64,000 bases of DNA from Tetraselmis striata. Its lineage: Eukaryota; Chlorophyta; Chlorodendrophyceae; Chlorodendrales; Chlorodendraceae. The position numbers and the translations under genes are program-made. This document shows, piece after piece, positions 17,618 through 31,200 of this stretch; position 1 is the stretch's first letter, and every line of letters begins with the position of its first letter. The stretch spans positions 124,001 to 188,000 of the forward strand of contig VCJN01003563.1 in the NCBI GenBank assembly GCA_006384855.1, given 5' to 3'. A model generated the notes under the pieces. That model worked only from the letters and a program-made list of their open reading frames with translations, did not search any database and was not told the origin of the DNA.

Positions 17618-17895
17618 TTATGCGGGTTCGTGCCGCTGGGCCGTAAGAAAGTCCAGCAACAGATCAAGCCGGAACAAATTCAAAGAAATTTTAAATTTTA
17701 AATGTAGCACCCGCTGGATGGGGTCATGCTTCTGTACCTCTGCGTGGAGAGGGCGGAATGTCAGCACGGCAGCATGCAACTCCCTGGTGGCAACGTGGCG
17801 CGCCTCGTCGATGTAGCCGCCCGCGTCAAGCAAGGTCCAACCGGGATGGCTGCGAGCTGACTCCTCCCACTTCATGGCTGGGTCTCCTTCAGGGC
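17618..17895 (-). pseudogene. Fragment of an unknown protein-coding sequence cut by the LTR element
   Basis: A minus-strand frame of about 90 codons reads MKWEESARSHPGWTLLDAGG and continues with balanced composition and few low-complexity runs, unlike shadow frames. Its 5' side is interrupted exactly at the left LTR (17896), and the first few residues of the frame are LTR-derived. The sequence right of the element (24668 onward) does not visibly continue the protein. I do not recognise the family; it may be the end of a gene or an older transposon. Confidence 0.35.
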
Positions 17896-18343
17896 TGTTG
17901 ACGAACACTGGTCGCAGCAGGCGATCAACTGGTCCACTGAAGTGTAAGTGAGCCCATCTGACTTATAGGCAAATAAGCCTGATGATAATGTGTATTCTGG
18001 CTACTGCAGAAATGATGGAATGTACTGGTACTATCAAGTGACATATACTGGAACTGCAGAGCAAGACAGGTGTGAGGCATGTGAAGACGTGCCTCATACT
18101 ACACTCCATCAAACACACCCAGATTTATGACAGGTGTCCGACTGAACCTGAATAGCCTTTTAGATATTGGAACCAGATCAAGAAGCATGAGAAATGGACA
18201 GATGAGCAGATGGAGCATGACCCCAGCAAGGGCATCCTGCAGATGAGAATATAATGGGACATTTCTCATCATTTGTATTTACAATATTCTGATCCCACAG
18301 ACTCGGTCCCAACAGCAAGCTAGGAATTCTCCGAACATCTAGA
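17896..18343 (+). repeat. 5' LTR
   Basis: 448 bp, starting TGTTGACG and ending CATCTAGA, matching the 3' LTR except for an insertion or deletion of about 40 bp near 18005 and scattered changes. The LTR divergence suggests an old insertion. Confidence 0.85.
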
Positions 18344-18646
18344 GGTTATGGCTAGCTACACGACTCAAAGCTTCCACTGCCTCTAGCATGCTGTTCAGTT
18401 CTTCGTGCATGTGTGCATGTGTGCCTGCAGCTGTGTGCTCGCCTACTTCGTGCCAGCTTTGTGCTTACTTTGTGCCAGCAGCTTCGCTGCGGAGGAGGGG
18501 AAACTGTGTGCCTCTCTCAAACGACTTGTCAAACCCCTGGCCAGCTCTCTCTCTCGGCTAAACTCGACCGTTCCCTACCTAAGAAGCGACCCAGCTCCGA
18601 GCTCTTCTGCCGCCTTCTCAGCCCCACTTAGCTCCACTCCCTGATT

Positions 18647-20602
18647 GTGGCTGTAACAACCGATCGTCTCAACTTTGGCAAAGCTCCCCCTATCAGTCTC
18701 TCCTACTGTGTACCTGACTCCCTTGCATCAGGTCTCTCCCTTCCAAACTCAAGCTCAAGGAGGCCAAGTACCTGGAATTTCATCAGGTCTCTCCCTTCCA
18801 AACTCAAGCTCAAGGAGGCCAAGTACCTGGAATTTCAGGAGGTCAATGATGCTCGCCTCCTCGTGATCTGGTGCATCTCTGTGAAGCGCCACATCCGCGG
18901 TGTTCCTCGGTACCGCAACATCTTCAGCGCCAATGATACCATTGTTGATGACGCGCATCACAATGAAGCTGTCAGCTCTATGGCTTCCCTACCGCTAGAT
19001 AATCAAGCCAAGGGCATCGTGCTCAAGGCCGTTGATCGCGCCAATGAGACAGCAGGCGGACGCGCGGCGCTCAAGGCCTTGCAGGAACTCCGCGCTTCAT
19101 ACCTTCCAGGTGAACGTACCCTTCTCGTTCAACTGAAAGCGTCACTGAATCATGGTCAGAGTACTCATGAAAATCTCCTTGACTTCATGACCCGGCAGGA
19201 GGACCTGCAGATTGCCATCAAAGACTGTGGTGCGACTGTCTCGGATGACGACATGCTCGTATCCTTGCTCAATGGCATGCGCACTGAGGAGGCCACTATC
19301 TGAGGAGTGGTGAAGGGGGACCCCACTGTCACCACCTTCGAGCTGGCCAAGGCAAAGATCAGGACTGTCCAAGACCACAGCATTAGTATGGAGCAACCTG
19401 GCGCTGCCTTTGCTGCCTTTGCGCCAACTGGGGCGACTTCCTACGCTGCCCTCCAAGCCCGCGTCACTGAGCTGGAAGCTGAGAAGAAGAAGGCTGAGGC
19501 TGCAACCCGCAAGTCTGAGGTAGACGAACTAAAGGCTATGGTGGCTGCAATGCAGTCCCAGCACAACGCTGGAGGCGGCGGCAGTGCACTGCGCTTCAAT
19601 CCGCAGAACCGCCGCTGCTACAACTGCAATGCCATCGGACATTTGGCCCGTAACTGCCCCAAGCCCGACAAGAGGAAGACAGTAGGAGAAGGCCGCCCAA
19701 GGCTTGCACCTGGTTCAGAGGAGCCGCCCGCCAAGGAGTTTGGAGCACTGTCGTTCCACATGGCGCTACTTGCCAGCGCCACACCTGAGCTCCCACCCAT
19801 GCCGACTAACGCTTGGTCCGTGATGCCTACCAGCCGTCGCACCATGATCAGGGCAGCGCCGTCACCCCCGCTCAGCTCCCACAACCCGTTCGATTCCCTC
19901 ACCTTCTCCGATGACACCGCCGGCCCAAACGATGAGCCTACCCTCCTAGAGGAGCGCGAAATGCGAGACGCCATCGCCGCTGTGTCAGCTGAAGAGCAAG
20001 CTATTGTTGCCGCCGTTGCGGCAGTCGCTAAGGAGGAAGCTTCGGAGCGTGCCGCCATTGTTGACGTTGCAGCCTTCATCGCAGCCGAGCATGTGGCCAT
20101 GACTGTGGCCCGCACAAGCAAGGCGACCATCCTGCCCAACGACGTTGCCATGCGCCGGGCTATCATCACAAATGATCCCACCCCATGGCATGCTGACTGG
20201 CTGCACTCGGCCGCCCACCGCTCGGGTAAGGCACCAATCCCGATGCCATCTGTGACGCATGTCGTACCAGCTTCTCGCTTCAACGCGTCGACCAACAGTG
20301 GCATGTCTTCTAACTGCAGCCGCCTGAGCGATCATGATCTCGGGTACGACATCGCCGATGATGACGAAGCTATGCTGGTGGATTTCCAGCGTCACTGGGC
20401 GCCTGCTGCACTTGCAGCACGTGCCTTCGCTCCCGCTGATGATCTGACATTGTCACCCGTATCTGACGACACTGGCTGCGAGAACAATAGCGTTCCTGGG
20501 CTTATTAGCGACGACAGTATCAGTGACAATGACTTCTCCCGGCACGCAAGCCCAGCCTCGCTCTGTGGCATACATACCCACTACTCAGCCGCACACGACT
20601 GA
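18647..20602 (+). pseudogene. copia gag with CCHC zinc knuckle (broken)
   Basis: Frame 18647-19303 has the helical capsid-like stretch of copia gag proteins, then stops at TGA (19301-19303); the same frame reopens at once and runs to 20602. A CX2CX4HX4C knuckle (CYNCNAIGHLARNC) lies near 19617-19658. A 55-bp tandem duplication (18726-18780 repeated at 18781-18835) shifts the frame near the start. Downstream of the knuckle the protein turns into an Ala/Asp/Glu-rich linker. Gag would package the RNA. Breaks: the duplication, the TGA and the stop at 20602 with the frame moving to 20523-21089. Confidence 0.75.
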
Positions 20603-21089
20603 CAACGTCTTCCCCGACTCTGACAACATGCCGCACATGGCCCCAGACAACACTGATGATGACAAGGCCGTCTCGATCGGTCACCGCTCCTCCTCGTTGG
20701 GCGCACGCAGCAATCCCAACACCCGACGTGCATTAAAACTTCACCGCCGCGCCAATCGTGCCGCTGCCCGCACCTTCACAGCGTGGCCCATCGCCAGCCT
20801 CCCTGGGACTTCCCCAACTGCGCATGGTGTCATGCGCAACATATATCTGGACGATGCCGTGGACTCATGTCGCCTCGTGCCCCGCGATGCCGTGTCCATT
20901 CAAAATCCATCGACGCAGCATGTTGCTGCTCACGAGGGCGTCTCATCCAGTAACGCCAGGCTCTCCATGACCAAGAGTGCACGTCGTCATCGCAATCGCC
21001 GCTCAGCTCGTCGCCTTCGGAAGCGCGACCCCTTTGCCATCGGGGGCACCAAGCACCTTGCAGCCACCACCCCAGTTGTCATCCCCTAG
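20523..21089 (+). pseudogene. Gag-methyltransferase linker with Arg-rich patches
   Basis: This frame overlaps the end of the gag frame and continues toward the methyltransferase. It carries two basic patches (RRALKLHRRANRAAARTF near 20730 and RRHRNRRSARRLRKRDPF near 20985) that could bind nucleic acid or act in nuclear import; this is inference. A TAG at 21087-21089 separates it from the methyltransferase frame, which is the same frame. No domain recognised. Confidence 0.5.
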
Positions 21090-21189
21090 TCCCCTCCCAA
21101 CGCTATCGACCAAGTGGAGACTGCTCTGGCGCCCGCTGAACAGCGTTGTTTCCTTGGAGAGGCAGCGCCACTGCCGTCCATCCGCCACG

Positions 21190-22160
21190 TTCGTGCCAAC
21201 CCTGCAGCACTAGTGCCCCACCATCCACTCCATGTTGTCATCCTCTGCGCAAGAGCCACATTTGGCGTCATTGACGGACTCTGTGCAGCCGGACACTGCA
21301 TTGCTACCATCACACTCGTGGAGAATGACGCCACAGTGCGTACTGCCGGGATCCTTGAGCTCATCAGAGTCCGTGCAAAATTGAGTGCGCTCATCTCATC
21401 CGATGCGATCGCCAATGCCTACGATCGCCTCCCCACTCATGACGTCCAACTCCTCATCACAGACATGTTGCCGCACTTCCGCGTGAGGACCTTCTCGTGG
21501 CAACACCTCCGTGTCAGCCGTTCTCATCAGCTGGGAGGAATCAAGGCATGCATGACCAGCGAGCAAAGCCCTTCTATGCCGTCTGCCGTCTCGTCAAGCA
21601 GCTCAACCGCGCACATAGCGGTATTACCTACGTCATCGAGAATGTCGCTGGAGCCGGGCGTTTCCCCGCCATTCGCGCGGCCCTAGGGGAGCCTGTCCTG
21701 GCCCGCGCACACGAGCTCGGATCATCATCCCGCCGCGACACCCTTCTCTGGACCAACGCGCGCAACCCGGACGCCCTGCATGCCCACTACCATCGTTCGC
21801 TCTGTCGCCCGACCAACGTGGGCGATTTGATTGCCAAGGGTGGCTTCGCACCGGAGTGGCACGCTCCCGCCCACCTTCGGCACAGCAAGTTTGGCAAGTT
21901 TGTGTCCCGCAAAGGCAGTTTCGCGCACCGGATGCATGGGTCCACCCCGGGCAACAGTATGCTGCTACACAATGGCGTGTATGAGGAGGCATCCACCGAC
22001 ATCAAATGCATTTCTATGGGCTTCGATGCCAACGCCGTCGACTTCCCCGAGGTGTCCGCCGTTCTGCGTCGACGTATCATTGGAGCGTGTGTGGACTCAA
22101 ACGTGGCGCGCTGGCTGATGGCGGCCATCTCCTCCGCGTCCAAAGACGAGAGCGCCCTCC
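21190..22160 (+). pseudogene. DNMT3-like cytosine-5 DNA methyltransferase domain inside the retrotransposon
   Basis: Two overlapping frames (21114-21686 first part, then 21497-22531) together cover a C5-methyltransferase. Visible motifs in order: a degenerate motif I region (VVILCARATFGVIDGL near 21236), motif II-like LVENDATVR (near 21310), catalytic motif IV VATPPCQPFSSAGRNQG (21497, Cys in PPCQ), motif VI YVIENVAG (near 21632), motif VIII-like SSSRRDTLLWTN (near 21725), and motif X-like RRIIGACVDSNVARWL (near 22070). Spacing and the ENV/RRDTLLW context resemble DNMT3/DRM rather than DNMT1. The canonical FxGxG of motif I is not intact, and a frameshift near 21462 breaks the reading frame. 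Expected role in an intact relative: methylation of host or self DNA at cytosine. Confidence 0.8.
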
Positions 22161-22169
22161 TAGCATTCA

Positions 22170-22467
22170 CACCTTCCCCCACAAATGGATCTTCAACTCT
22201 GGCGCTACCTCACACATGGTGGCGCAGTACGAGGACTACTCCGACTATCAGACCATACCGCGCCGATGGATCAGCGGCTTGGGCGCCTACGCTGTGGGTA
22301 CCGGTGCAGTCCATATCAGCATGCGAGCCGTCAACGGCGATACATCCTGCAACACCCTTCACAACGTTCTTCATGTGCATGATCTCGCTTCCCGCACCAA
22401 TAACGAGGTGCTTCGTCTCTTCAGTGCGAGGCATGCGCGGGATGCCAATGCAGCTCTACATATATAG
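22170..22467 (+). pseudogene. copia aspartic protease (catalytic Asp changed)
   Basis: The third frame here reads WIFNSGATSHMVAQYEDY, matching the copia protease active site (W-hydrophobic-D-S-G-A-(T/S)-x-H-M), but Asn replaces the catalytic Asp. The GLGAYAVGTGAVHI segment follows as in the family. The frame differs from both neighbours, so frameshifts lie near 22165-22180 and near 22460. Confidence 0.7.
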
Positions 22468-22469
22468 TC

Positions 22470-23535
22470 ATGACAGCGCGCAGCAGCGCCATGCAGATCT
22501 CCGATGCCGTAACCATTCCCATCGAGAATGACGGGCGCTTATTTATCCTGCACAGTCACGTGCTCCGTCAGGGACGGCGTCAACGTCACGGTAGTCCGGT
22601 GGAAGCTGCCACAGCCCTCGCCGCAACACCCTCCAGCGCATTACCATCTGACAAAATATTGTGGCATGCGCGCCTCGGTCACATCCACGAGCGCGCCATG
22701 CACCGAGTTACCAATGGGGGGCCCGATGCCAACCTGCGTCATACCAGCCTTCCGTTCTGCAAGTCATGCGCAATCGTCAAATCCACTGTGGCCTCAATGC
22801 CGCGCATCTGTCATGAGAAACCAACTGTGCCATTCTCTCTCGTTGAGAGCGACCTCTGGGAGCTGCGCACTCCTTCGTTGCAAGGTCACACGTACTGCTG
22901 TGGGTACGTCGACTACGCGACATCCCTGGTGTGCTTAGTCTGCTGCAATTCCCGACAATGTGCTACCGCTACTCTGCGTTCATTCAACACCATGGTGGTC
23001 AGCTACGGCCATTCAATCGCAGCATTGCGTCTGGACAACGGTCAGCCTTCCGCGGTCAAGCATATGTGTCCGCCTGCGACGCCCTAACCATTCGCCGCAC
23101 ATATGTAGCACCATACAGCCAGTTCCAGAATGGGCTGATGGAGCGCACCTGGCGCACCCGCTGTATGCTGGACTACGCCAGCCTCCAAGACACCTACTGG
23201 GAGTTCGCCATGTCGGTCGCAGCCTACATCTATAACCGCACCTTCCGCCGTGGAGTTCATGGAATTCCACTTCACCTCGTGACTGGCGCCATCCCAGACT
23301 TGCGCCATCTCCGTGTGTTTGGCTGTGATGCCAATGCGCACGTTCCCCGGAGTACCCGGTACAAGGCTGCCCCTTCCGCCCGCCAAGGTGCCTTCGTTGG
23401 ATACTCCACAGACTCGCCGGCATGGCTTGTGTACTTTCCCGCCACGCGCTCTGTTGTGGCCAGTCGATCCGTCACCTTCGATGAAACTGATCGCTCCACG
23501 CCGTGCACCCTGGAGCACCCCGATTCATGGCCGTA
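22470..23535 (+). pseudogene. copia GAG-pre-integrase and integrase core (frameshifted)
   Basis: The zinc-binding pre-integrase segment is clear: ILWHARLGHIHERAM then CKSCAIVKSTV (His-His-Cys-Cys). The integrase core follows with Asp in VESDLWELRT, Asp in RLDNG, and, after a frameshift near 23040, Glu in SQFQNGLMERTWR, giving the D-D-E triad. The C-terminal part (LRVFGCDANAHVP, GAFVGYSTDSPAWLVYFP) is typical of copia. The integrase inserts the element's cDNA into the genome; this copy is interrupted. Confidence 0.8.
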
Positions 23536-23649
23536 TGCAGCCCCTCAAAAGGGGATGACTACACAGTCAGGAGGGGCCACAGCCGCCAAAACAGGAGGGG
23601 TTGTGCCCCGAGCACTATGCCCTACCTGCTCGGCATCAACCCATGACCG

Positions 23650-24112
23650 GGGACTGACTTTCGGAGGAGAATGCGAGTTTCGTCTTCATGGTTACAGCGA
23701 TGCTAACTTTCCCAGTCAGTGCAAGTCGACCAGCGGTTATGTATTCTTTCTTGCAGGAGCAGCCGTCAGCTACCTATCCAAGCTTCAGCCATTGGTAGCA
23801 CTCTCGACAGCAGAGGCAGAATATATAGCGCTTTGTGTCACAGCGCAGGAGGCAATGTTCTTGAGGCAGATGCTATCAGAACTGGGATTCAGGCAGGACG
23901 GCGCAACAACAATCGGAGAGGACAACCAGGCATGTATTACAATCACCACCAACGACGTGACCTCAGCCCGGACCAAGTACATGGACATCCGACTTCACTT
24001 TGTGCGAGATGCACAACGCTCTAAGAAAATCAAGGTGTACTATGTGCCCAATGCTGACATGCTGGCTGACACCTTCACGAACGAAGCCGCCTGCGTCCCG
24101 CCAGCAGTTTGA
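23650..24112 (+). pseudogene. copia RNase H domain; preceding reverse transcriptase absent
   Basis: HGYSDANFPSQCKSTSGYVF, ALSTAEAEYIAL and DNQACITITTN are the Ty1/copia RNase H signatures (Asp, Glu, Asp). The frame is continuous with the integrase frame from 22931, yet only about 110 bp separate them, so the reverse transcriptase with its YxDD motif has been removed without breaking the frame. Stop at 24110-24112, about 60 bp before the 3' LTR. Confidence 0.8.
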
Positions 24113-24160
24113 GGCCTTGAACTCGCGCATCATGAACTACAATATTGCACCTGCAACCAG

Positions 24161-24170
24161 TGAGGAGGGG
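24161..24170 (+). promoter_or_regulatory. Polypurine tract
   Basis: TGAGGAGGGG immediately 5' of the 3' LTR, the usual position of the plus-strand primer in LTR elements. Confidence 0.7.
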
Positions 24171-24662
24171 TGTTGACGAACACTAGTCGAAGCAGGCGAT
24201 CAACTGGTCCACTGAAGTGTAAGTGAGCCCATCTAGCTTATAGGCAAATAAGCCTGATGATAATGTGTATTCGTAATAGTGCAGTATAAATTACGGAAAT
24301 GATGCAATGATGGAATGCAGAAATGATGGAATGTACTGGTACTATCAAGTGACATATACTGGACCTGCAGAGCAAGACAGGTGTGAGGCATGTGAAGACA
24401 TGCCTCATACATACACCACTCCATCAAACACACCCAGATTTCTGACAGGTGTCCGACTGAACCTGAATAGCCTTTTAGATATTGGAACCAGATCAAGAAG
24501 CATGAGAAATGGACAGATGAGCATATGGAGCATGCCCCCAGCAAGGGAATCCTGCCTGCAAATGAGAATATAATGGGACATTTCTCATCATTTGTATTTA
24601 CAATATTCTGATCCCACACACTCTGTCCCAACAGCGAGCTAGGAATTCTCCGAACATCTAGA
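24171..24662 (+). repeat. 3' LTR
   Basis: 492 bp, same ends as the 5' LTR, directly after the purine tract and followed by the target duplication AGGGC. Contains an extra segment with a repeated ATGATGGAATG motif near 24300-24330. Confidence 0.85.
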
Positions 24663-24667
24663 AGGGC

Positions 24668-27720: not shown

Positions 27721-28237
27721 GGTACGGGCGCGCGCGCCGTCGCCGGCGCAAGCATCACATACACTGCCGTCCCGCGGATGTAACCGTTACCCCGCCGTAC
27801 CCCGTACCTGCCTCCCCATACACATACGAGCACAACCCAAAGTCATCGCTCTGTGAGTTGGGGGCCGGGAGCCTCGACGGATAATGATGGCCGGGCTGTC
27901 TGCGAACGACCGAACGTTGCCTTGCATACGTGATGGTATCAGGGAGCTTGGGCTTGGCAGCAAGTGGCCGGTCGCGGGCGGTCGCCTATGGGCTACGAGC
28001 AGTGGCTGAGGTACGACTGCCCATAGCGAGCGGAGAGTAGTCGGCTGATCGCGCCCAGGACGGCACCGCTTTGCGTTAATTGCAGGCGACGCCGGGCGGG
28101 GGGGTCCACTACGAGAGCGGCGGATCCCTGTCGTCCCAGAGCCGGATGCTCTTTATTTAGCGTCGAGCGGAGGAGGTGTGCAAGCACGGCGTCCAGCGGA
28201 GACACGGGACGAGGACCGATCGGCTGAGGAGGGAGCC

Positions 28238-31200
28238 ATGCAGTTGCCAACTTCATCACTTCTTCGTGCTAGCAGTGCTAGCATGCCGGGGATGCCATTT
28301 CCTGGCCGCAGGCACCTGCTACAGACCTGTCTAAACTGGATTTCAGACGTCGAATGGGTTGGCACAGGTACCTACCAGTCCTCCACGGCGCTCACCGTCG
28401 CCGACGCCTGTGCGCAGTGCCTCGCGCGGACGTGGTGCGGTTACTGGTACCTGGAGCCCGGGTTCATCACTCGGCAAGCGCATTTCTACGAGGGCGCCAC
28501 CGGGCAAACCGCGTCCTCAGGCAGTGATGCAGGCTATATTCGGGACAGAGTACCTTCGCCGCCACCTCCAGCGAGCCCCCCTCCACCTCCACTCCCGCCT
28601 CCCTCACCGCCCCCAGACTCACCTCCGCCCCCAAGCCCTCCACCCCCTCCAAGCCCACCTCCACCCCCAAGCCCCCCACCCCCTCCCAGCCCACCTCCAC
28701 CCCCAACCCCCCTTAACCCACCTGACCCACCCCCGCCATCACCTCCGCCCTCACCCCCGCCCTCTCCCCCACCATCACCTCCGCCATCACCCCCACCCTC
28801 TCCCCCGCCATCACCTCCGCCCTCACCCCCGCCCTCTCCCCTGTCATCACCTCCCCCCGGCCCACCGCCCCTGTCTCCACCTAAATCCCCACCTCCTCCC
28901 TCACAACCTCCACCGCCGCCTCCATCCAACCCTCCTCCAGGCCCCTCGCTTCAGACAGGAAATCCCCCTCCAAGCCCGGGTCAGCCCGCCAGCCCCCCAC
29001 CGCCAGCGACGCCGCCGCCACTGCCGCTGCCCCCGCCGCCAAACTCACCGCCCCCCAGCAGCCCTCCAAGCCCCCGCCCCTCGCTCCTGGAACGGTGGTC
29101 CCTCCATCACCACCTCCAAGGTAGGGTGCTTTCACACCACACTCCAAGGCATGTGCACATGGTTGTGTTGACAGCGGGTGCATGGCATTGCAGGTTTCCG
29201 TGTTCAAGAGCATGTTGTCCATAGCAGTGGCATTGATGGTTTCCAGATGATAGTGTCTCGTCTTTTAGGGATTGTGGACCATTATGTACGCGGGGCAAGA
29301 GCTTTCGCGGATCAATACAGCGATATTGACATTGTGGGAGATGCCTGACAAGCCGAGTTTGATTGCCAATTGTGTCCCGCAGTGCCCCATGGAGTCCGCC
29401 TCCTCCCTCTCCCCTCCCACCAAGTTCCCCTCCCCCAAGCCTGCCGCCTGTCTCCCCATCTCCTCCACCTCCTCCATCTCCTCATCCCCCTCCGCCCCTT
29501 GCGCCCGGCAGCACCGCACCAGCTTCACCCCCGCCAAGGTGTGACGCCGCCTCCCATTCCCCAATACATGCCCTGTCCAATTATCGGTGGTCCAATGAAG
29601 ATGAACCTTTTTTTAGCTTCACGCTGAGCTGAACGACTTCCATGCATGCCTTGCAGGTTGCCACCACCGCCGCAAGTTCCCTCTCAGCCACCCAGCCCCC
29701 CTCCTTCCAGCGAGCCTGCTGCTTCAAGTGCTGTGCCCCCGCCGCCCAGCACGCCCACTGTCATGCCACCCACCGGGTAAGTGGCAATTCCAAGATATCC
29801 CTATGCTATGTACCGTTGGTGTTGGAGCTCGCCATGCCCACATATTATATATAAAAATCAAGTCCAAGCACCCACTGCGCTCGCCTTGTTGGTTTCTGTG
29901 TACGGTTACTGACACCGCTTGGTGTCACCTGCCTGCAGTCCTCCACCCCCTCCCCTCAATCCAGCTACGAGCCCTGCGGTCAATCCACCGCCATCGCCTC
30001 CACCACCAAGCCGTATCATGCCACCCACCGGGTAAGTGGCAATTCCAAGATATCCCTGTGCTACATACCATTGGTGTTGGAGCCCGCCATGCCCACATAC
30101 TACATATAAGTCCAAGCACCCACTGGGCTCGCCTTGTTGGTTTCTGTGTATGGTTTCTGACACCGCTTGGTGTCACCCCCCCGCAGTCCTCCACCCCCTC
30201 CCCTCGGTCCAGCTGCGACCCCTGCGGTCAATCCACCGCCATCGCCTCCACCACCAAGCCCTCTCATGCCACCCACCGGGTAAGTGGCAATTCCAAGATA
30301 TCCCTGTGCTACATACCATTGGTGTTGGAGCCCGCCATGCCCACATACTATATATAAGTCCAAGCACCCACTGCACTCGCTTTGTTGGTTTCTGTGTATG
30401 GTTTCTGACACCGCTTGGTGTCACCCCCCCGCAGTCCTCCACCCCCTCCCCTCAGTCCAGCTGCGACCCCTGCGGCCAATCCACCGCCATCACCTCCACC
30501 ACCAAGCCCCTCCTCCACAGGCAACATGACACCTGCACCTCCCCCTCCGCCTGTCTCGCCACCGGCACCTGCGCCACGTCCTATGCAGCCGGGCGTCATG
30601 CCACCTCCGCCACCGCTGCAACCCAGGTATTTGACCTACAAGCCCGTCCCTATGAGCGCTGAACCAGTGCCTACGTTAAGATCATCATTGTTAGCCGTGT
30701 TTAATATGCAGCTCAGAAGAGGTGCTGACAAATGCCCTGTGCCTGGTTCCGCAAATCCAACCCCTCACAACAACCTTACGCCATTCCCGCTCAGCGTGAC
30801 GGCGGATCCTTCTCAGCCCGGTTCCCCACCCCCTCAACCGCCTGCCCTTGCCCCTGCCCCACCACCGCCAAATCCCAGTTCCCCGCCCCGCCCCGCCGAT
30901 GCCTCCTCTCAGCCCCCCGCCTCCAGAACCCAGTCCGCCACCGCAGCCTGGGCAAGAGGACACTCAGGTAATCGACGTGGAGCAGCCTTGGGTGGAGGAT
31001 TTTCTGAATAGCAATCTGGTCCCTGCGGATGTGGTCCCGCCTGAGATACACCTCAGGGGTGGAGCGGTGGAAGAGGTGCTGCAGCTCGGAGTATTCAGCG
31101 ATCCAGGTGGCCGCTCTTGCCCTTCTTACTGCTGGTGGTCACGGGTGGCTGTCAGAGACCTGACAGTGCCTGCCCCTATGATGCGGCAGGCGCATACGCG

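Follow-up and report, generated by a model that had tools for sequence, protein, structure and literature searches.

Retrotransposons of one Ty1/copia lineage in the green alga Tetraselmis striata (class Chlorodendrophyceae, core chlorophytes) carry a DNMT3-like C5-cytosine methyltransferase (MTase) as a fixed domain of their single gag-pol frame, between nucleocapsid and protease. The window, meaning the whole 64,000-nucleotide stretch of DNA analysed, is part of the 224-Mb T. striata genome (internal contig label C2865, 124001-188000) and holds one such element at 17896-24662, with the 5-bp target duplication AGGGC on both sides. Identity of the genome is shown by two of its loci, which match JGI Tetstr1 gene models exactly over runs of 1,169 amino acids. 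An initial annotation had described a Ty1/copia element of a chlorophyte-like genome with a DNMT3-like MTase placed between its gag and protease, and Pfam, profile searches and sibling loci show that this MTase is real and multi-copy. Cytosine methylation is usually a host weapon against transposons. On present sequence evidence the overall explanation is probable, though its later parts are less so: packaging of the domain with Gag is somewhat likely, and methylation of the element's own cDNA is more tentative.

Copies and families with the domain

A genome search with PF00145 (123 of 337 candidates scored, which makes the counts lower bounds) gave at least 123 matches: 17 strong (E 3e-16 or better), 14 end pieces and about 92 that align with the motif IV-VI core (E 4e-11 to 6e-6). 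Thirteen of the strong matches were read as sequence and all are other MTases; the 23 core matches read (20 fetched loci, L021-L040, chosen by score and long frame, plus C423, C2687 and the window) are all retroelement MTases. A single open frame of 2,295-2,299 amino acids, running gag-MTase-protease-integrase-reverse transcriptase (RT)-RNase H, is present in five of the fetched loci. Perfect 5-bp target duplications flank 16 of the 20, and 4 of 5 bp match in one more; none was found for L031, L034 and L037. Pairs of long terminal repeats (LTRs) are up to 100% identical, and near-identical pairs with target duplications that differ between copies show, in many cases, what is evidently recent activity. 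In intact L021 the Pfam order is zf-CCHC, DNA_methylase, Pol_BBD, gag_pre-integrase, rve, SH3 and RVT_2. The copia order (gag, protease, integrase, RT, RNase H) with RVT_2 is found in intact L021 and L027, the window copy itself being without RT, and the presence of RVT_2 with integrase before RT places the intact copies in the copia class, not in gypsy or DIRS.

The domain is also found in diverged families. An RT search of the genome (125 of 1,015 candidates scored) separated bands of identity to family A: 14 matches at 85% or more (A itself), 6 at 66-72% (family C), 33 at 63-65% (D), 2 at 58-60% and 70 at 50-51% (E). A single member was read for C, D and E (L042, L041 and L043, respectively); the MTase lies between zinc knuckle and protease in the first two and is missing from the third. 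Family B (L037, L039, L040), with an RT only about 31% identical to that of A, has it at the same place. Outside this genome, the order in P0005 runs from zinc knuckle through MTase, Pol_BBD and integrase to RVT_2, and P0099 and the fragment P0014 have the MTase before Pol_BBD. The genome-wide search called for by the initial annotation returned further copies, some of them intact, and diverged families. Neither of the outcomes it had named as refuting was found: rather than siblings with a clean empty site, many copies, including members of four families, hold the domain at the same position, and this recurrence speaks against a processed host gene inserted into a single copy, a reading that was rejected.

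By its RT, family E is a separate family and not an empty-site sibling of A. A pol tree built from 19 sequences unites families A to E with P0005 and P0099, against 12 other copia elements (99.5/100); B branches first (97.4/85), and E falls inside the group, beside P0005 without support (12.7/35). The simplest reading, and a likely one, is that this copia lineage took up the domain once, at its root, and that E later lost it. The RT matches of family E crowd onto a few contigs (C1776, C805, C440, C776, C1230, C406; C1776 alone has five), a pattern that a nested or centromeric cluster would give.

Identity and relatives of the methyltransferase

Structure prediction compared with PDB gives DNMT3 as the nearest fold of the catalytic domain (the VIA-align comparison bears only on the families listed), and viral structures matched with weaker E-values than PDB DNMT3. 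A profile search likewise put DNMT3 first and DNMT2 next, 13 bits behind, whereas single-sequence phmmer gave weak pointers to HaeIII, DNMT2 and HhaI. The catalytic Cys (motif IV) and ENV (motif VI) are invariant in eight aligned domains, down to 30% identity. In a wider alignment of 25 rows, fragments included, P0027 lacks the Cys, and P0011, P0019, P0025, P0027 and P0028 have an altered ENV. Compared with the catalytic domain of DNMT3A/3B, the retroelement MTase has LCAG for LFDG and R-x-T for R-x-R, and Pfam found no ADD or PWWP in the intact element polyproteins. The second place of DNMT2 is one point in favour of an RNA substrate, with element RNA in the particle as the molecule modified; the domain also adjoins the nucleocapsid and would presumably meet RNA first, and RNA methylation has been raised for the SymbioLINE enzyme in PMC5890265. 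DNMT3 is nonetheless clearly the best fold and profile match, and modification of RNA seems quite improbable.

A protein search with an alignment of the MTase clade (7,998 candidates scored) gave at least 88 matches, the best 21 over 100 bits and the next listed at 55 bits; among the best 21 listed, those with readable context are copia or long interspersed nuclear element (LINE)-type. P0006 and P0007 are LINE-type polyproteins of about 3,800 amino acids. The order in P0006 is Exo_endo_phos (24.0 bits, just under cut-off), RVT_1, MTase and an RNase H-like stretch, and RNase_H is listed for P0007. The Tetraselmis genome has a LINE-type carrier of its own, C2687, whose MTase (327 bits) lies within a 3,505-amino-acid open frame; RVT_1 (1.7e-26; 39% identical to P0006) is in phase with it and lies some 3.3 kb upstream, with 2.1 kb between the stretches left unread, and RNase H (25.0 bits, just under the 25.8-bit cut-off) follows the MTase. 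In gypsy-type P0119 the order is RVT_1 end, RNase H, MTase, PHD finger (850-894), Integrase_H2C2 and rve. A Cys/His stretch before the MTase of P0006 (about 2190-2260) looks PHD-like by eye and has no Pfam match; the ADD of DNMT3 also includes a PHD-like part.

Of two MTase trees, the one that includes an animal DNMT3A places the copia, LINE and gypsy domains in one clade against the outgroups (98.8/100), with DNMT3A outside it. The outgroups comprised one partial animal DNMT3A and ten DNMT2, other eukaryotic, bacterial and unclassified sequences, with no algal DNMT3. The domains of A, C, D, P0019, P0097 and P0099 group in both trees (98.7/100, 99.3/100), and P0005 and P0014 join them less firmly (87.9/85, 82.1/86). 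LINE MTases group at 98.5/99 and 98.3/99, and LINE with gypsy at 90.5/90 and 69.2/87 (the second value of each pair is from the tree with DNMT3A). An approximately unbiased (AU) test rejected none of five constrained topologies (p-AU 0.14-0.69), and family B with LINE and gypsy (p-AU 0.14) was excluded by resampling estimated log-likelihoods (RELL) alone. A bacterial or phage origin was rejected: scans of IMG/VR and prokaryote genomes returned only generic MTases, 24 loci (2 and 22, respectively) that score 23.5 to 44.7 bits with the clade profile, whereas L046, P0099 and P0119, all left out when it was built, score 327, 310 and 277, respectively. The IMG/VR locus that was read, L044, is an ordinary phage-type C5-MTase. 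Tetstr1 is the only EukProt match named in the clade searches, which had limited sensitivity and length windows.

Since the closest MTases found are carried by other retroelements (copia, gypsy, LINE), the domain may have reached the copia lineage from one of these and not from a host gene, the source perhaps being a pool of retroelement MTases common to LINE-type and gypsy-type elements. Several captures from one unsampled host lineage are also possible, because the tree holds one partial DNMT3 and no algal DNMT3. The broader proposal is evenly balanced: a retroelement-specific DNMT3-like lineage would have moved between copia, gypsy and LINE elements (at least two classes in one algal nucleus) as an exchangeable epigenetic module rather than through separate thefts of host genes, and in Tetraselmis would have been kept even in a trans-mobilised subfamily without RT. 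If true, epigenetic modules are traded among parasites, and the reading of 2018, recurrent capture from hosts, would need revising; the MTase may serve parasites as a mobile tool for acting on host epigenetic marks.

Capture of DNMTs by LINE, DIRS and gypsy retrotransposons was described in 2018 (PMC5890265), and comparisons with that work are made by description. KnitGypsy-Dnmt3 of Klebsormidium nitens is alike in being a multi-copy LTR element of the green lineage with an in-frame Dnmt3-like domain under purifying selection; it differs in being gypsy with the domain in Pol, whereas the Tetraselmis element is copia, in a chlorophyte, with the domain between gag and protease. The layout of P0119 is comparable to it. 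SymbioDIRS-Dnmt3 and SymbioLINE-Dnmt of Symbiodinium are also intronless MTases in retrotransposon frames, one of them on a LINE as in P0006, P0007 and C2687. DIRS, however, has a tyrosine recombinase and no copia order, and SymbioLINE has its DNMT in a reading frame upstream of the RT frame, whereas the P0006/P0007/C2687 type has the MTase between RT and RNase H. The separate capture suggested by the initial annotation for a chlorophyte-like genome is borne out only in part: element class and domain position differ from the 2018 cases, but the nearest MTases found are on retroelements. One sentence in the accessible text of a 2025 paper (PMC12344493) names "LTR Copia and DIRS" elements as carriers of DNMT3; it cites the 2018 paper on streptophytes and dinoflagellates, which describes gypsy, and that text gives no anatomy, chlorophyte, position or link between classes. 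The available text of PMC6338049 (2019) reports DAM- or DCM-encoding gypsy and DIRS retrotransposons from several groups that include green algae, with antiviral defence put forward as a speculation; "copia" is absent from it, and DCM versus DAM is not specified for the green algal elements. No description of copia MTases in chlorophytes or Tetraselmis was found in the open-licence PMC literature. As far as that literature shows, what is new is a chlorophyte copia lineage of four families with an MTase between gag and protease, the sharing of one MTase clade by three element types (copia, gypsy and LINE-type), two of which occur in a single genome, and a carrier subfamily without RT.

Retention, selection and possible function

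The window copy and five others (L026, L029, L030, L033, L035) share one identical in-frame deletion of 1,479 bp (493 codons, 6-bp microhomology) that removes RT. All six are at different target sites (the duplication of L035 has one mismatch), the LTRs of L030 are identical, and open frames of 1,806 and 1,805 amino acids persist in L026 and L035, the latter keeping its MTase, protease and integrase regions. These copies must have used RT supplied in trans. L026 is mosaic: most of its 5' part resembles A, and parts of the gag-linker region and a stretch directly after the junction are somewhat nearer L035, a pattern to be expected when RNAs are packaged together. A splice origin of the deletion is not supported (microhomology at its ends, no GT-AG), nor is replacement of the MTase as a lone cassette (the raised divergence extends beyond it, over a longer stretch, and the copies are mosaic). 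A family A copy, L036 (C162), has a separate, independent RT deletion and keeps gag, MTase and integrase regions, with frameshifts.

The dN/dS comparison across copies that the initial annotation had proposed gave, for the MTase of L021 against that of L035, 41 synonymous and 29 nonsynonymous differences (dN/dS 0.215, p 3e-9; p-values are from a simple binomial test of neutrality that ignores transition bias). For the same pair dN/dS is 0.16 in gag, 0.33 in protease-integrase and 0.69 in the linker (p 0.09). By this measure the MTase is under purifying selection between the two subfamilies, that is, over the longer span.

Several observations weigh against the overall explanation. First, family E, with 70 RT matches and one member read, does well without an MTase. 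Second, family B is poorly placed, outside the others in one MTase tree (1.2/45) and with other copia in the second (60.3/84), and monophyly of all copia MTases is merely not rejected (p-AU 0.69). Third, constraint is weaker over short spans: in recent family A copies (pooled, non-independent pairs) dN/dS is 0.42 for the MTase against 0.15 for RT, and L035 and L030 differ in the MTase by 10 nonsynonymous and 4 synonymous changes (p 0.48), so that constraint inside the RT-less subfamily since its origin leaves no apparent signal. The last comparison, the spread of the RT-less subfamily and the MTase-free copy of family E would all fit a neutral passenger, kept merely because it lies inside the frame. 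The ratio near 0.2 between A and the RT-less subfamily and the catalytic residues conserved across four families and sources outside the genome had already told against a passenger, which is very improbable.

Fourth, the copia families read depart from LFDG at motif I (LCAG; degenerate in B), family D has PCA for PCQ, and the eight aligned domains have R-x-T (L046 R-x-A) where DNMT3A has R-x-R; because of these changes some families' MTases may be weak or inactive. The same changes, with the PHD finger beside the MTase of P0119, would suit a non-catalytic role, either nucleic-acid binding in the particle or steering of integrase to methylated or H3-marked chromatin. Such a role is unlikely given the invariant Cys and ENV and the constraint between subfamilies.

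Fifth, comparison of copies shows no strong CpG-to-TpG decay in older ones. Between the window copy and L035, 3.4% of CpG and 2.7% of other C/G sites have changed, and the excess in a reverse-direction control is larger (4.9%, 2.0%). A CpG excess of about 2- to 4-fold in L031, L032, L034 and L036 is on small counts, and CpG observed/expected is 0.80-0.90 in elements and 0.88 in flanks; the CpG methylation footprint is, on these figures, weak. The genome has SRA-domain exons (C2359, C249, C2808), a domain associated with reading of 5-methylcytosine, which the host probably does read. Searches for DNMT1-RFD, MBD and Retrotran_gag_2 gave no match, but their controls likewise gave none, and no absence is implied. 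These data bear on self-restraint, in which the MTase would mark the family's own copies for silencing, limiting host damage and letting the family persist. De novo methylation in eukaryotes usually silences, and the SRA exons would fit. Slower retrotransposition that benefits the host is also one option raised by PMC5890265. Recent activity in many copies argues against it, however, and the weak decay does not suggest long-standing heavy CpG methylation (CpG context alone was examined); self-restraint is doubtful.

Methylation of the element's own cDNA, the favoured though tentative mechanism, would proceed differently. The MTase would be made together with Gag, since it lies N-terminal to the protease in one frame, and its packaging in the virus-like particle is rather more probable than not being packaged. 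More tentatively, it could then, in the particle or nucleus, methylate the new double-stranded cDNA before or at integration, and the copy would arrive methylated. Such pre-methylation could conceal or shield the incoming DNA, or hold down its expression. For SymbioDIRS, with an enzyme that methylates CG de novo, methylation of cDNA ahead of integration has likewise been proposed (PMC5890265). With an MTase kept through the divergence of four families and several near-identical intact copies, the question of why transposons carry MTases becomes testable: as a sister family without an MTase, E provides a natural control within one nucleus, and the RT-less carriers separate MTase from RT.

Anatomy of the window copy

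The LTR pair with its 5-bp duplication, and the gag knuckle, protease region, integrase and RNase H noted around the MTase by the initial annotation, were all recovered, in the Pfam order zf-CCHC, DNA_methylase, Pol_BBD, gag_pre-integrs, rve, SH3_retrovirus, with RNase H by tblastn. The MTase had been given the span 20600..22170; the domain does lie inside it, but 20600-21180 is linker (Table 1). The LTRs, 448 bp (5') and 492 bp (3'), differ at 21 of 448 aligned positions (K about 0.048), with 44 gap columns. Positions 95-327 of the 327 in the clade profile are matched in one frame (357.8 bits), and the N-terminal part of the MTase is in another. In-frame stops interrupt gag and linker, frameshifts fall both within the MTase and between later domains, and the protease motif is altered, so that this copy, which also has no RT, is dead and cannot make the enzyme.

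Table 1. Parts of the copia element in the window (window positions)
Feature	Position	Strand	Evidence
Target-site duplication AGGGC, 5' copy	17891..17895	no strand	direct reading
5' LTR	17896..18343	+	LTR comparison
Gag region and linker start; in-frame stop 19301-19303	18773..20602	+	tblastn to intact family A frame
Gag zinc knuckle zf-CCHC	19613..19663	+	Pfam 5.7e-7
Gag-to-MTase linker, broken by stops	19664..21179	+	reading and tblastn to intact frame
DNMT3-like C5-cytosine MTase domain, approximate bounds; frameshift between motif I and motif IV	21180..22150	+	Pfam DNA_methylase 2.1e-10 (core only) and clade profile
Motif IV PPCQP (catalytic Cys)	21506..21520	+	read; Cys invariant in 8 aligned domains
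Motif VI ENV	21638..21646	+	read; invariant in 8 aligned domains
RRDTLLW (motif VIII region; R-x-T vs R-x-R of DNMT3A)	21731..21751	+	read and alignment
Protease region Pol_BBD; active-site motif altered vs intact copies	22186..22392	+	Pfam 1.3e-8
gag_pre-integrs domain	22644..22781	+	Pfam 2.4e-7
Integrase core and SH3-like domain, frameshifted	22830..23491	+	Pfam rve 1.1e-4 (22.9 bits, under 32.6-bit cut-off); SH3_retrovirus 9.5e-22
Junction of 1,479-bp (493-codon) RT deletion at 6-bp microhomology, common to six copies	23638..23643	+	copy comparison
RNase H region	23644..24112	+	tblastn to intact copy
3' LTR	24171..24662	+	LTR comparison
Target-site duplication AGGGC, 3' copy	24663..24667	no strand	direct reading

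The genome also holds a second multi-copy intronless MTase, of about 325 amino acids and bacterial type (PPCVGLS, MEQ, GVGNAVPPLL), at L001, L002, L004, L006, L008, L009, L012 and L017 (contigs C1993, C776, C2337, C1455, C2272, C1230, C493 and C1496). L003, L005, L010 and L011 were assigned to it by frame length only. Three same-strand copies lie within 25 kb on C1230, and this MTase is perhaps carried by another mobile element. L016 (C2009) encodes a 630-amino-acid bacterial or phage-like MTase, and its contig is probably a bacterial one in the algal assembly. Elsewhere in the window, 248-bp tandem repeats (29758-30603) lie near proline-rich coding stretches (28049-31011).

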